Positions 48,293 to 53,932 of a DNA stretch of 64,000 bases are shown here, in pieces. Location: assembly GCF_002849595.1 (NCBI RefSeq), contig NZ_NRQR01000025.1:1-64000 (forward strand). The letters are read 5' to 3'. The first letter of the stretch is position 1. Each line of letters begins with the position of its first letter. The notes under the pieces were generated by a model that did not search any database, was not told where the DNA came from, and was given only the letters and a program-made list of their open reading frames with translations. The translations under genes and the position numbers were made by a program. This DNA comes from Luteimonas rhizosphaerae. GTDB lineage: Bacteria; Pseudomonadota; Gammaproteobacteria; Xanthomonadales; Xanthomonadaceae.

Positions 48293-48472
48293 TCCGCTCC
48301 CCGCACCCCTTGGTGGTGGAGATCGACCGCGTTTTCGCGACCCCCTTCGCGCGTTCTCACGACGCTGAACGAATTGTTAAGAGAGCCGGGCGCGGGTCCT
48401 CCTGGGCCGCCTTCGACGCGGGTAATCAGACGCGCGAAAGCCGCGTAGTCAGTGGGGTCGAGAGTTACTGAA

Positions 48473-50878
48473 ATGGCCTCGAACCTCGATGTTGTCCTGA
48501 ACCAACTGCGCTCGGCGGGTCTGCTGGTCGAGCGCCTCGAAATCGGTACCCCGCGCCCCATCCGGTGCCTCGTCGAGGGCGGCGGGCGCGAGCGCCGCGG
48601 CTGGTACCGGCTGTACGAAATGCCGACCAGCACCGGCGACATGCTCATCGTCGGCAGCTACGGCATCTGGCTGGGCAACGAGAACAACGCGCAGAAGGTC
48701 ACGCTGTCGAAGGGCGCGGCGCTGAGCGACGAGCAGCGCGAGACACTGCGGAAGCGTCTGGCCGACGACCGCCGGAAGCTCGAGCAGGAGCGCAAGCGCC
48801 AGGCCGAACGCGCCGCCCATCGCGCCACCGCGGCCTGGGCCCGCCTGCTGCCCGATGCCGACTCGGACTACCTGGCAGGGAAGGGTGTCCGCGGCCACGG
48901 CCTGCGCTACACGCCCAACGGCACGGCCGTCGTGCCGCTGCTCGATACCGGTGGGCGCCTGCACGGACTGCAGTTCCTTCGGAGCGCGAAACAGGCCGAG
49001 GCCAGCGGCCGGCACGCGAAGGAGTTCTGGCCGGCCGGCCTGATCAAGAAAGGGCACTTCCACCTGGTCGGCACGCCCGACTGGATCGTTCTGGTGGCCG
49101 AGGGCTACGCCACTGCCGCGACGCTGCACGAGGCCACCGGCTATCCCGTCGCGATCGCGTTCGATGCCGGCAATCTGGAGCCTGTCGCCACCGCACTGCG
49201 CAAGCGCTACAAGCGCGCCAAGATCCTGATCTGCGCCGACGACGACGTCCTGGCGAAGTGCCAGAACCGCGAGTGCCGCGGCCGCATCGTGCTCACCGAA
49301 GACCCGGTCACGTGTCCGCACTGCCACGAGGCGCACAGCGCGACCAACGCCGGCATCACCAGCGGCACCAACGCGGCGATCGCGGTCGACGGCGCGTGGG
49401 TCGCGCCGATCTTCGCCGATGAAGCCGAGCGCGCGGACCGCTACCGCAAGACCGGCCGCAAGATCTCCGACTTCAACGACCTGCACGCCACCGAAGGGCT
49501 GCATGTCGTGCGCACGCAGGTCGAGGCCCGCATCCTGGCGCTGTCGTGGCGTGCCCCGAGCGCCGCGCCTTCTTCCTCCAACCCGGGGGGCGGGGACGGC
49601 CGAAAGCTGCGCCCCATCCAAGACCTCGGCGAGCTGCTGCCGCGGTTCTCGCTGGTCTACGCCGCCGGCGGCGCGGTGTTCGATCGCAAGGAACACTGCC
49701 TGCTGCCGATCACCGACATGCGGAACATCTGCATCCGCGCCGATCTGCACAAGGCGTGGATGGAGCATCCCGAGCGCGACATCGTCCGCCAGGAGGAAGT
49801 CGGCTTCGATCCGGCCGAGACCGACCCCGCGATCACCTGCAACCTGTGGAGCGGCTGGCCCACCGCGCCGCGCGCCGGCAACTGCGAGCGCCTGCTGGAC
49901 CTGCTGCGGTTTCTCTGCAGCGACGAGCGCAACCGCTCCGACGAGCTGTTCAACTGGGTGCTGCGCTGGGTGGCCTATCCCATCCAGCACCCCGGCGCGA
50001 AGATGAAGACCACCATCGTCGTGCACGGCGGGCAGGGCGCCGGCAAGAATCTGTTCTTCGAATGCGTGATGGGCATCTACGGCAAGTACGGCCGCATCCT
50101 CGATCAGGACGCCCTCGTCGACAAACACAACGACTGGGCCAGCCGGAAGCTGTTCCTCATCGCCGACGAGGTCGTCGCCCAGGCCCACCGATTCGAGTTG
50201 AAGAACAAGCTCAAGACGCTGATCACCGGCACCCAGATCCGCATCAACCCGAAGCACATTGCGGCCTACGACGAGGCCAACCACTGCAATCTGGTCTTTC
50301 TCTCCAACGAGGACATGCCAGCCGTCCTCGAGGAAGACGACCGGCGCCACTGCGTGATCTGGACGCCCTCGGAGCAGAAGCCGGACTACTACGCCGCCAT
50401 CCGCGCAGAGATCGCCGCCGGCGGCATCGAAGCACTGCACGAGCATCTACTGCACCTCGACCTAGGCGACTTCCACGCCGGCACCCGCCCGCCTGAAACG
50501 CTCGCCAAACGCACGCTGGTGGGCCTGGCGCGCGACACGCCGCTGGTGTTCGCCGATGCCCTGATCACCGGTGACATCGGCAAGCTGCAGCCCGTGCCGG
50601 GCCTCACGGTGGACTGGTACGCCATCTACCAACGCTGGTGCAGCACCATCGGTGAGAAACCCGCGCCGATGAAGCGCTTCCTCAACACGCTCGAGCGAAA
50701 ACGGGGCTACGCGACCGAGCGCAAGCGTTACCTCGACGGCCAGACCGTCGTGCATCCGAAGTCGGTGCTGACCTTCGGCATCCGCCCGCCCGAAGGCATC
50801 GCCGAGACCGAATGGCTGGGCGATCAGATCCTCACGATGAAGAACGCCATGGCCGACTTCCGCGGGGGCCTGGCGTGA
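48473..50878 (+). CDS. phage replicative primase-helicase (TOPRIM plus superfamily 3, DUF5906)
   Basis: The 801-residue protein is a primase fused to a helicase, of the P4-alpha / DUF5906 type. In order: an N-terminal helical region, a TOPRIM-like primase domain (LVAEGYATAATLHEATG, then AKILICADDD, ~205-260), an inserted four-cysteine zinc site C263-X4-C268-X12-C281-X2-C284, a linker, and a superfamily-3 helicase with Walker A HGGQGAGKN (Lys525) and Walker B LFLIADEV (Asp565, Glu566). The zinc site inside the TOPRIM-like domain is notable. It would start and unwind at the phage origin, which probably lies just downstream. Start ATG 48473 is preferred; a GTG 21 bases earlier is possible. Confidence 0.9.
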   Translation: MASNLDVVLNQLRSAGLLVERLEIGTPRPIRCLVEGGGRERRGWYRLYEMPTSTGDMLIVGSYGIWLGNENNAQKVTLSKGAALSDEQRETLRKRLADDRRKLEQERKRQAERAAHRATAAWARLLPDADSDYLAGKGVRGHGLRYTPNGTAVVPLLDTGGRLHGLQFLRSAKQAEASGRHAKEFWPAGLIKKGHFHLVGTPDWIVLVAEGYATAATLHEATGYPVAIAFDAGNLEPVATALRKRYKRAKILICADDDVLAKCQNRECRGRIVLTEDPVTCPHCHEAHSATNAGITSGTNAAIAVDGAWVAPIFADEAERADRYRKTGRKISDFNDLHATEGLHVVRTQVEARILALSWRAPSAAPSSSNPGGGDGRKLRPIQDLGELLPRFSLVYAAGGAVFDRKEHCLLPITDMRNICIRADLHKAWMEHPERDIVRQEEVGFDPAETDPAITCNLWSGWPTAPRAGNCERLLDLLRFLCSDERNRSDELFNWVLRWVAYPIQHPGAKMKTTIVVHGGQGAGKNLFFECVMGIYGKYGRILDQDALVDKHNDWASRKLFLIADEVVAQAHRFELKNKLKTLITGTQIRINPKHIAAYDEANHCNLVFLSNEDMPAVLEEDDRRHCVIWTPSEQKPDYYAAIRAEIAAGGIEALHEHLLHLDLGDFHAGTRPPETLAKRTLVGLARDTPLVFADALITGDIGKLQPVPGLTVDWYAIYQRWCSTIGEKPAPMKRFLNTLERKRGYATERKRYLDGQTVVHPKSVLTFGIRPPEGIAETEWLGDQILTMKNAMADFRGGLA

Positions 50879-50891
50879 TCGCGCCCGTCGC

Positions 50892-51142
50892 TGTGCGGCC
50901 TGTGCGGGCAGCCGTGCGGGCACCTGTGCGGGCAGAAACCGCGCAACCACGCGGGTTGTGCGGCCTGTGCGGGCAAATCCACCGCGCCCGTGTAGGCGTA
51001 TGCGCACACCTGCGCCCATGCGTACACCCGCGCGTGCACGTGGGTGCATGCCCGCACAGGCCGCACACGCCGCACAGCCGCGACGTGGCGCGGGTTCGCG
51101 GGCCTCGCTCCCCGCACAGGTGGCCGCACGCCCCGCCGCACA
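50892..51142. repeat. candidate phage replication origin: direct and inverted repeats
   Basis: The 19-base block TGTGCGGCCTGTGCGGGCA occurs exactly at 50892-50910 and 50957-50975, and as its exact reverse complement at 51049-51067. Extra partial copies GTGCGGGCA lie at 50914 and 50926, and CCCGCACAGG at 51111-51120 with more CCGCACA units to 51142. A stretch of alternating purine-pyrimidine sequence lies at ~51000-51050. It fills the 332-base gap between the primase-helicase and the next gene. Iterons beside a P4-type primase-helicase are a known origin layout (as in P4), so I read this as the origin; the binding protein is inferred. Confidence 0.6.
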
Positions 51143-51210
51143 GCCGTGTCGCCTCGCGCGCGTCCCTTCCCACCCTCGTTGCTCGAAAGAAAATGGATGG
51201 AGACCCCTCG

Positions 51211-51396
51211 ATGCAGTCGGACGGTCGGCAGCTGGATCTGGTGCGGCACAGCGACGCAGCGGTTGCGGCGGCGCACCGCCTGGCGGCCCAGACCGCGCTG
51301 CTGAATCCCTACGAGTCCCGCGAGGCGTGCGAACGCCGCGCTGCCCATCACCTGGCCGAGGCCGCGCGCCTGTCCCGCTCGGAGCCCGCCGCGTGA
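51211..51396 (+). CDS. small phage protein before terminase
   Basis: The 61-residue, helical protein (VRHSDAAVAAAHRLAAQTAL core) precedes the terminase genes and overlaps the small-subunit GTG start. ATGGAGA lies shortly before the ATG at 51211, so that start is preferred to 51193. Function unknown. Confidence 0.6.
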   Translation: MQSDGRQLDLVRHSDAAVAAAHRLAAQTALLNPYESREACERRAAHHLAEAARLSRSEPAA

Positions 51397-51995
51397 CCGC
51401 CGCCGAGACCGCCGCCGAGACCATGGGCTTCCGCGAGTTCGCGGACCACCTGCGCGTCAAGGCCGGCTACGTCACCGAGTTGCGCAAGGCTGGGCGGCTG
51501 GTGCTGACCGACGACGGCAAGCGCGTGCGTGTGGCCGAGAGCCTGCAGCTCATCGCCGACTCCCGCGATCCCAGCCGCGCCGGCGTCGTCGCGCGCCACG
51601 CGGAAGCGCGCGGCGCCGAGGTCACCGCCCCCGCGGCGGACAGTGGCGAAGACGAGGACGACGACACGCAGACCGGCGGCATCACTGGCAGCCACGGCTG
51701 GCGCCGCGCCAAGGCCCAGGCCGACAAGGAAGAGGCCCTCGCCCGCAAGGCCCTGCGCGACGAGCAGATCGAACTCGGCACGCTGCTCGTCATCGATGAG
51801 GTCGTCGCGTCGCTGGCCACCACCATCACCACGCTGCGCACCGGGCTACAGAACCTCCGCTCCACCCTGGCGCCTTCGCTCGCCGCCGCACAGACCGAGG
51901 AACAGGTCGGCGCGCTGCTGGGCGAAGCGATCGAAAGCGCCCTCGACGAATGCGCCCGCGAGCTTCACTCCATCGCGAAGGGGAAGGCGGCATGA
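51393..51995 (+). CDS. terminase small subunit, Nu1-like
   Basis: The 200-residue protein has an N-terminal MerR/Nu1-like winged helix (MGFREFADHLRVKAGYVTEL) that recognises the packaging site, then a charged linker and a helical oligomerisation domain that would contact the large subunit. The GTG at 51393 overlaps the previous stop; the large-subunit start overlaps its own stop. Confidence 0.84.
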   Translation: MTAAETAAETMGFREFADHLRVKAGYVTELRKAGRLVLTDDGKRVRVAESLQLIADSRDPSRAGVVARHAEARGAEVTAPAADSGEDEDDDTQTGGITGSHGWRRAKAQADKEEALARKALRDEQIELGTLLVIDEVVASLATTITTLRTGLQNLRSTLAPSLAAAQTEEQVGALLGEAIESALDECARELHSIAKGKAA

Positions 51996-53932
51996 CCGCC
52001 GCTGCCCTCTACCAGGCCGCCGCCCGCGCCATCGCGCCGCGCAAGCCCATGCGCGTCAGCGAGTGGGCAGACCGCAATCGCGTGCTGTCGCAGAAGGGCA
52101 GCGCGATCGGCGGCCAGTGGCGCAGCAGCCGCAACCCGCTGCAGATCGAGATCATGGATTGCTTCAGCGCCCGCAGCCCGGTGCGCGATGTCGTCGCCAT
52201 CCTGCCCATCCAGTTCGGCAAGAGCGAGATCGAGACCAACATCCTCGGCTACACGATGTGCGAAGACCCGGGCCCGGTGATGGTCGCCTTCCCGGGCGAA
52301 GTGTCGATGAACAAGTGGATCGACCAGAAGCTCAGCCCGCTGATCGAATCCACGCCCGCCGTTTCGCGCGTGCTCACCAGCATCGCCAGTCGCGAGTCCA
52401 GCAACCGCCGGCACTTCAAGGATTTTCAGGGCGGCCAGCTGTATATCGAGCACGCCGGCAACCCGGTGCGCCTCAAGTCGACATCGGTCAAAGTCACGCT
52501 GGGCGACGAGTTCTCCAGCTTCGCCAACCTGCTGCGCGGCGGCGACGATCCCGAAGCGCTGCTCGACGGCCGCAACTCGGCATTCCCGACGACTTACAAG
52601 CGTCTGAAGGTCGGCACGCCCGAGCTGATGGGCTTGTGCCGATTGACCATGCTGTGGGAGAAGTCCGACAAGCGACTGTTCCACGTGAACTGTCCGGACT
52701 GCGGGCACGCGCAGCCGCTGGAATGGCCGGGCCTGCACTGGACGCCCGACGCTTCGCGCTGCTGGTACGTCTGCCGCGAGTGCGGCGTGGTGATCGAGGA
52801 ACACCAGAAGGCGCAGCTGCTCGCCGCCGGGCAGTGGATCCCGACCGGCGACGTGCACGCGCGCATCCGTGGCTACCAGGCGAACTGCCTGTACTACCCG
52901 CTCGGCCTCGGCCCGCGCTGGCTCGACCTTGTGCACATGTGGCGCGACGCACAGGTCGACCCGGGCAAGCTGAAGACCTTCATCAACGACCGGCTGGCGG
53001 AGGCGTGGGAAGACCCTGCGATGCGCGCGGTCAAGCACAACGTCATCGCCGATCGCGTCGAGCCCTACAAGCTGCGCGTCGCGCCGGCCGGCGCCCTGGT
53101 GCTGACCGCGGGCGTCGACACGCAGGACAACCGCCTGGCCGTGCAGATCATCGGGTGGGGCAGGGGCATGACCTGCTGGATCCTCGATTACGTCGAGCTC
53201 GACGGCGACCCCGCCAACCCGGAGGTCTGGGCGAAGCTGACCGATCTGCTCAACAAGCCCATCGAGCACGAGCGTGGCGGCGTGGTCCGCGTGCAGGCCA
53301 CCGCGCTCGACGCCGGTGGCCACCGCACCGAGGCCGTCAAGCACTTCGTCCGCGAGCGCCGAATCGCGCGGCCGCTGTGCATCTTCGGCGCCGTGCCCAA
53401 CAACGCACCGGTGCTATCGAAAGCGAAGCTGCAGGACGTGAACTGGCGGGGCCAGCTGGACAAGCGCGGCGTGCATATCCAGCACGTCGGCACAGTGGGC
53501 ATCAAGCATCTGCTCTACAGCCGCCTGTCGGCCGATGCCGACAAGCCCGTCGACGCGCGCATGGTCCACCTGTCCGATGAGCTGGAACAGTCCTACCTCG
53601 GCGGCCTGGTGTCGGAAACCTACAACCCCGCGAAGAACCGGTTCGAGAAAAAGCGCGGCGCGCCGCGTAACGAACCGCTCGACACCTGGGTCTACGCCTA
53701 CGCCGCCACGCATCACCAGGAGCTGCGCTTGCACCGGTTCACCAAGGCCGACTGGGACGCCGTCGAGCTGCGCATCTGCGCCACGCCCAACGCCCCGTCG
53801 GCGAATGATTCCCGTGAAACATCGTCTGTTCGGCATCAACAAGTGCCCGCGAGTGCGATCGAGGATTCCCGTGGAACACAACAAAAGCGGCGCGCAAAGG
53901 GAGGCGTAGTCGATGGCGACTGGAATTTCTGA
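51992..53932 (+). CDS. terminase large subunit, GpA family
   Basis: The 646-residue packaging motor and nuclease is of the lambda GpA type. The ATPase P-loop-like LPIQFGKSEIETN has Lys77, and LGDEFSSF is the acidic Walker B region. A CPDCGH...CRECGV zinc-like pair follows near residue 232. The nuclease domain has GVDTQDNRLAV with Asp376 and later GHRTEAV. All expected regions are present. GGGGAAGG lies before the ATG at 51992. The GpA type usually implies cos-end packaging. Confidence 0.93.
   Translation: MTAAALYQAAARAIAPRKPMRVSEWADRNRVLSQKGSAIGGQWRSSRNPLQIEIMDCFSARSPVRDVVAILPIQFGKSEIETNILGYTMCEDPGPVMVAFPGEVSMNKWIDQKLSPLIESTPAVSRVLTSIASRESSNRRHFKDFQGGQLYIEHAGNPVRLKSTSVKVTLGDEFSSFANLLRGGDDPEALLDGRNSAFPTTYKRLKVGTPELMGLCRLTMLWEKSDKRLFHVNCPDCGHAQPLEWPGLHWTPDASRCWYVCRECGVVIEEHQKAQLLAAGQWIPTGDVHARIRGYQANCLYYPLGLGPRWLDLVHMWRDAQVDPGKLKTFINDRLAEAWEDPAMRAVKHNVIADRVEPYKLRVAPAGALVLTAGVDTQDNRLAVQIIGWGRGMTCWILDYVELDGDPANPEVWAKLTDLLNKPIEHERGGVVRVQATALDAGGHRTEAVKHFVRERRIARPLCIFGAVPNNAPVLSKAKLQDVNWRGQLDKRGVHIQHVGTVGIKHLLYSRLSADADKPVDARMVHLSDELEQSYLGGLVSETYNPAKNRFEKKRGAPRNEPLDTWVYAYAATHHQELRLHRFTKADWDAVELRICATPNAPSANDSRETSSVRHQQVPASAIEDSRGTQQKRRAKGGVVDGDWNF

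Follow-up and report, generated by a model that had tools for sequence, protein, structure and literature searches.

In SaPI/PICI elements and in the SCCmec Cch2 system, the replication origin is reported to be located directly 3′ of the gene for the helicase and to be bound by C-terminal domains (PMC6092414, PMC7581432). PICI origins are described there as two iteron sets around an AT-rich region, with a rep-ori plasmid that replicates (PMC6092414), and SaPI/PICI Rep, by these accounts, seems to bind in the form of two hexamers (PMC6092414, PMC7581432). For SCCmec, the isolated C-terminal domain of Cch2 is reported to bind a putative origin downstream of the helicase gene (PMC7581432). P4 alpha is described as combining a Toprim primase, a helicase and a winged helix, the last of which binds the repeats of the origin (PMC4234260). 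Two further proteins are relevant for their mode of DNA recognition: RFX1 places its wing in the major groove (PMC4333399), and TcpK uses its wing to recognise a 9-nt sequence that occurs in tandem copies (PMC6137059).

The working principle of such origins is thus already known from P4 and SaPI/PICI. Here we describe a repeat array in a tailed prophage that is very probably its replication origin, with twelve units to which the phage primase-helicase would bind through a C-terminal winged helix.

Gene context and layout of the array

The element sits in a 224-kb contig of the assembly, and the window is the 64-kb stretch of DNA that was analysed. CII-like and DksA-like genes lie upstream of the primase-helicase gene, and the features around the array are as follows.

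48452–50878, plus strand: primase-helicase gene, 808 aa (phrog_2249, E 4.5e-147; Toprim_4, DUF5906; AF2 models), the proposed origin-binding initiator
50714–50770, plus strand: wing hairpin codons, aa 755–773 (T755, R757, R759, S771), from model secondary structure and covariation
50892–50972, plus strand: left arm, TGTGCGG units at 50892, 50901, 50913 (one mismatch), 50925, 50957 and 50966
50976–51048, no strand: centre, 73 bp of alternating purine-pyrimidine sequence, GC 0.685, the putative opening site
51052–51142, minus strand: right arm, TGTGCGG units at 51052, 51061, 51070, 51112, 51124 (one mismatch) and 51136
51211–51396, plus strand: small ORF, 61 aa (phrog_29330, E 0.0008; no Pfam match)
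51393–51995, plus strand: terminase small subunit-like gene, named by its position before the large subunit, as gp3 in phage S1 (no Pfam match)
51950–53932, plus strand: GpA-type terminase large subunit (PF05876, PF20454)

The preliminary description of this DNA had reported a 19-base repeat, TGTGCGGCCTGTGCGGGCA, present twice directly and once as an exact reverse complement, and the exact coordinates bear this out (50892–50910 and 50957–50975 on the plus strand, 51049–51067 on the minus strand). The repeat is not common elsewhere in the host: the 3.64 Mb assembly (34 contigs) contains no further match with at most two mismatches, and the pattern read backwards, used as a control, gave 0 forward and 2 reverse matches in the same assembly. 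The 19-mer copies are exact, but the real unit is a 7-mer, and the 19-mer consists of two neighbouring units plus adjacent bases. Twelve TGTGCGG-type units (at most one mismatch), six forward and six reverse, occupy the gap between the primase-helicase gene and the small ORF, with spacings of 9-12-12-32-9 in the left arm and 9-9-42-12-12 in the right. Two extra one-mismatch minus-strand matches to TGTGCGG fall at 50939 (left arm) and 51002 (centre).

Other parts of that description also hold at this resolution. The strand switch gives the array its mirror layout, with six plus units followed by six minus units, and its strand-switch word score of 24 compares with a maximum of 13 among 630 other 310-bp pieces of the window. 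The array directly follows the primase-helicase, as had been claimed; its first unit lies 14 bases past the stop codon, immediately 3′ of the proposed initiator gene. The centre, described earlier as purine-pyrimidine-alternating, is the most strongly alternating stretch of the window (6 of 9133 73-mers reach its level, all 6 overlapping it). With the arms at 0.738 and 0.802 GC and the whole window at 0.696, the centre, at 0.685, is not AT-rich.

The Toprim_4 domain of the primase-helicase scores above the cut-off (E 2.9e-7), and the protein contains EGYATA, a motif known from P4 alpha. The full-length AF2 model is middling (pLDDT 76.6, pTM 0.45). Modelled alone, the C-terminal domain (aa 683–808) is predicted as a winged helix (pLDDT 89.2, pTM 0.82) in which helices are followed by wing strands 755–762 and 765–773. 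Residues 755, 757 and 759 alternate along one wing strand of this model and 771 lies on the partner strand, an arrangement that would fit one face of the hairpin meeting DNA. Structural comparison of the C-terminal model (VIA-align) placed the RFX1–DNA complex in row 1 (Z 5.4, rmsd 2.6, 68 aligned) and the P4 origin-binding domain (1ka8) in row 7 (Z 4.8, rmsd 3.7, 77 aligned); these Z values are modest and tied with those of unrelated winged helices. Foldseek with the same model returned nothing at E <= 0.001, and the alignment of the C-terminal domain matched no PDB sequence significantly (best E 0.12). The whole protein matched two PDB sequences named ‘Primase’, presumably those of phage NrS-1, through the helicase core, and P4 was not among these sequence matches.

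Conservation of the array after related helicases

Relatives were collected by scans that used the helicase itself, individual relatives or an alignment as query (one scan giving the best 80 of 589 confirmed matches, another the best 80 of 128) and by whole-genome searches, which found a match in 12 of 101, in 42 of 397 and in 4 of 369 genomes (the last at E <= 1e-60). Removal of 69 duplicates and 12 partial sequences from 235 helicase sources left 154 distinct loci, the present prophage being L022. The preliminary description had pointed to homologous helicases as the place to look for the same layout, and it was found there: the 340 bp after the helicase score at least 12 in 143/154 loci and at least 15 in 132/154, against a 99th percentile of 10.6 among 575 random pieces, 3 of which reach 15. 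Among the 143 loci, arms of 6+6 units are commonest (31), followed by 6+5 (22) and 5+5 (17), and 111 have no wrong-way match of the chosen word.

Eleven loci score below 12 (L025, L028, L035, L041, L052, L053, L120, L219, L223, L234 and L262). By eye, no array follows the helicase in L219, L223 or L262, and the others mostly hold degenerate arrays. In L219 and L223, a gene with a P-loop-like motif appears by eye to take the place of the array. An earlier statistic based on exact 6-mers did not exceed every control in 8 of 37 regions (L025, L028, L035, L036, L041, L052, L053 and L054), which by eye mostly contain degenerate TTGCGG-like arrays.

The units could be placed in a T1G2T3G4C5G6G7 register in 132 loci; the 22 left out comprise 11 low-scoring and 11 unregistrable loci. 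The commonest spacings in the registered loci are 9 and 12 in both arms, followed by 32 in the left arm and 43 in the right, and 1648 units have the expected orientation vs 97 the opposite one. When the spacings of the present array are taken as a slot model (9-12-12-32-9 / 9-9-42-12-12), at least five of six slots are filled on both sides in 87/132 loci, compared with 0/132 after shuffling; the last of the six slots on the right is occupied in just 43/132. The words used in place of TGTGCGG include TGTGCAG, TGTGAGG, TCTGCGG, TGTCGAC and CGCTACGG. Bases 2–7 read GTGCGG in 73 registered loci, GTGCAG in 20, CTGCGG in 9, GTGAGG in 7, GTGCCG in 6 and GTGCGC in 5, with rarer others, and the unregistrable loci use words such as CACTACGG, AACCACGC, CGCTACGG, GAACAGCA, ACCGAACA and TTACCCGA. 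Seven named phages were also examined. In PG1, LPPA36, Turba, PS3 and Mcat4, an array built from other words (scores 11–14) is found where the primase gene ends or close to that point, one ORF intervening in LPPA36; the array of H4907 is weak (8.0), and M29 has none.

Alternation recurs at the centre, exceeding that of 95% of other places in 120/154 loci and of all other places in 87/154. An AT-rich centre was considered as a general feature and rejected: over 75 loci the centre is on average not AT-richer than the arms (mean GC 0.637 vs 0.629 and 0.643) and lies below both arms in 32. In the AT-rich relative L045, the two arms enclose a centre (about 2705–2785) that contains a long inverted repeat, AGAACATATTTT...AAATATGTTCT. 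Outside the array of the present prophage, an A-rich tract, CGAAAGAAAATGGATGG, was noted at 51179–51200, within the lowest-GC 20-mer of the gap (starting at 51179, 35% GC), which lies past the array and overlaps the leader of the small ORF. In 72/154 loci, the corresponding position also holds an A-run; the tract may be merely a ribosome-binding leader, or a melting aid.

The array region might instead encode a protein, as in the record of phage S1 (NC_011589), where it is annotated as hypothetical protein gp2 (L057:2454–2804). Six-frame translation of 114 arrays found no open frame in 3, all six open in 1 and one to five open in the rest, so open frames by themselves cannot rule out coding. 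The unit words, however, are wholly replaced among relatives at similar spacing and orientation, which makes a conserved protein through the array unlikely, and this candidate, raised beforehand as a possible objection to an origin, was rejected. In L065 and L140, the helicase frame seems to extend into the left arm, and the units there would be coding as well.

Covariation between the helicase wing and the repeat unit

In the 132 registered loci (effective number 68), each of 750 variable helicase columns was scored and ranked against the unit bases by weighted mutual information, normalised to the square root of the column's entropy. Base 2 had column 759 at the top of its ranking, base 5 had 757, base 6 had 771, base 8 had 755 and base 9 had 741. 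Residues 755, 757, 759 and 771, associated with bases 8, 5, 2 and 6, all fall within the wing hairpin of the C-terminal winged helix. Base 7 showed no wing association, its best wing column ranking fifth of the 750 by mutual information. Columns 757 and 759 were first spotted by eye, and 755, 741 and 771 came from the column scan.

Co-change was also scored for 730 columns on a 131-tip tree, for which residues 93–690 were used so that nearly all of the C-terminal domain was left out. Column 757 ranked first for base 5 (4/8 base changes) and 771 first for base 6 (8/11); 759 was second to 243 for base 2 (3/5), and 755 second to 328 for base 8 (10/22). Column 745 was first for base 9. For base 7, 649 was first and no wing column ranked above sixth (757).

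At the level of single residues, G2 occurs with R759 in 119/121 loci and T/C2 with G or C759 in 11/11, and C5 occurs with R757 in 116/118, A5 with P/S/V757 in 9/10 and G5 with Q/H757 in 3/3. Exceptions include L045 (W759) and L007 (P757, register ambiguous), and L124 was misregistered. In 47 loci fetched after the rules had been noted, 757 agrees in 45 (39 with C5 and R, 6 with neither) and 759 in 46. Restricting this set to the 27 loci whose C-terminal domain is <80% identical to any earlier one leaves 25 agreements for 757 and 26 for 759. Three of the 27 depart from the 757 majority, of which L261 (A5, P757) agrees with the rule and L206 (G757) and L201 (A5, R757) disagree; the sole departure from the 759 majority, L206 (K759), disagrees. 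L206 has an insertion beside columns 757/759, and the register of L201 is uncertain. As nearly all 27 loci carry the majority state, this out-of-sample test adds little beyond the column scan and the tree test.

Second copies of the C-terminal domain were observed in two settings. In L068:6324–7256 (also in L007/L018/L139, genome G001), a separate frame past the array encodes such a copy with no helicase core. Its wing reads R757 and G759 by eye, for which the residue–base rules predict T or C as base 2, a prediction that its own array (TGCAACGC) does not follow; it may be left over from an exchange of modules, or may block the origin of another phage. The small 61-aa ORF of the present prophage shows no similarity to this extra protein. 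In L124, an ORF from 8421 encodes a separate 387-aa protein that has this domain at its end (E 1.4e-17), with R757/R759 by eye, matching its own array word.

Alternative functions of the array

Among functions other than replication, the one that survives best, though it is improbable, is that of an operator, at which the helicase or another phage regulator would bind to control terminase transcription. The array does lie between early and late genes, and some initiators autoregulate through iteron binding. Twelve oriented mirror units with an alternating centre would nevertheless exceed the usual operator, the distance to the terminase varies and the array stays at the helicase, and the comparable SaPI/PICI arrangement replicates plasmids.

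In lambda, the small terminase gene is immediately preceded by the cosB R-sites, and the present array likewise precedes a terminase small subunit-like gene and the GpA terminase. A role as packaging (cos/pac) site, with the terminase small subunit (TerS) as the binding protein, is nonetheless very unlikely. Among the best 80 of 84 confirmed matches of a TerS-anchored scan, and with loci such as L302, in which just the first part of the helicase is matched, left out of the count, nine distinct loci have a helicase of this family ending at least 1.2 kb before TerS (L281, L284, L287, L290, L293, L294, L295, L299 and L306). In all nine, the array is beside the helicase (scores 12.5–27.5) and the 400 bp before TerS score only 5.5–7.0, so that the linkage to the small subunit gene typical of a lambda-type cos/cosB site is lacking in 9/9. 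The nine represent about four independent arrangements, since a single spacing (1273 bp) recurs in six of them. In 14 further loci, a divergent, partly matching helicase lies 1.5–3.3 kb upstream; the best window starts 27–334 bp past the match in 13 (scores 8.0–16.5, 8 of them at least 12) and none was found in L329, whereas the stretch before TerS scores 5.0–7.0 in all 14. By eye, other genes follow the array in L046 and L055 (ParB-like) and in L056 (tail-like), and the unit bases covary with helicase residues. The array thus stays with the helicase where the terminase lies apart, and ownership of it by cos/TerS was rejected on the basis of the TerS-anchored scan.

Iteron arrays serve as centromeres too, and the ParB-like gene that seems by eye to come after the array in L046 and L055 would suit a partition or incompatibility site of a plasmid-like prophage. 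We regard this as highly implausible, given that the covarying protein is the helicase and that in the present assembly the element lies within the 224-kb contig. A hairpin in RNA or DNA (attenuator or processing signal), formed by pairing of the inverted arms in one strand, can practically be dismissed: the arms do hold inverted matches (e.g. 25 nt at 92%), but the units are direct repeats inside each arm, so that arm pairing can be a by-product, and their base changes track protein residues.

Proposed mechanism

Replication from an origin bound by a P4-type primase-helicase, as the preliminary description proposed, is supported by the combination of Toprim, DUF5906 and a predicted winged helix, parts reported for P4 alpha. 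It gains further support from the position of the array just 3′ of the helicase (143/154 loci), the covariation with the wing and the fact that the array remains beside the helicase in loci with a distant terminase. The best reading, made by analogy, is a self-loading helicase origin that would work like the P4 and SaPI/PICI satellite origins, with six sites per hexamer.

The C-terminal winged helix would be the part of the primase-helicase that binds the twelve units. Judging from the covariation of unit bases with wing residues, a unit of 7–9 bp would be read mainly by the wing hairpin. By analogy with PICI origins, six units per hexamer, in opposite polarity, would let two head-to-head hexamers form, each subunit with a site of its own, and face the alternating centre. 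The hexamers would then open the centre, which we propose as the opening site, load and unwind in both directions, and the Toprim domain would prime synthesis. Phage lineages carry different origin words, as is seen in the sequences, and initiator and origin would co-change because they are neighbours. This may make origins exclusive between phage lineages.

A stricter version of this scheme is tentative and, on balance, doubtful. In it, residues 755, 757, 759 and 771 would each set one base of the origin word, the rigid 6+6 arrangement would serve two hexamers, and the duplex would open at a GC-rich alternating (Z-prone) centre. With one hairpin residue per base, origin specificity could shift through single changes with the 6+6 geometry kept. 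If such a wing code is true, stand-alone domains like those of L068 and L124 could block a rival phage’s origin.

Comparison with known origins

New here are the layout in tailed prophages, the residue-to-base code and an alternating instead of an AT-rich centre; the accessible portion of the open-licence literature yielded no description of an array across tailed prophages, of its 6+6 slot pattern, of the alternating centre or of the residue-to-base code. The satellite-type helicase origin would thereby extend to tailed phages and prophages of Luteimonas, Stenotrophomonas, Pseudomonas, Moraxella, Marinobacter and others. These supply dozens of natural initiator/origin pairs with differing words, and the residue-to-base code can be tested directly on a winged helix that seems to use its wing for reading DNA. 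A centre that is not AT-rich also bears on how origins open.

Compared with RFX1 and TcpK, which are neither initiators nor helicases, the wing-first mode proposed here derives from covariation. The SCCmec Cch2 system differs in having only three 5-nt iterons in its origin and a separate protein pair as primase. The closest record in the phage collection searched is Stenotrophomonas phage S1 (NC_011589), whose primase is 55.7% identical and is followed by a similar array with TGTGCGGG, a region that there bears the gp2 annotation. P4 alpha shares the Toprim primase, the unwinding activity and the winged helix; the present protein has the Toprim domain and, by AF2 prediction, the C-terminal winged helix, and its repeat binding is suggested by covariation. 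The structural match to the P4 winged helix is modest (Z 4.8), and the P4 origin has other repeats and a second element, crr. The likeness to SaPI/PICI extends to an initiator helicase with a C-terminal DNA-binding domain, an origin immediately 3′ of its gene and two iteron sets (here 6+6) flanking a centre. Unlike those elements, the locus described here belongs to a prophage with its own terminase, and its centre is a run of alternating purines and pyrimidines rather than an AT-rich region.
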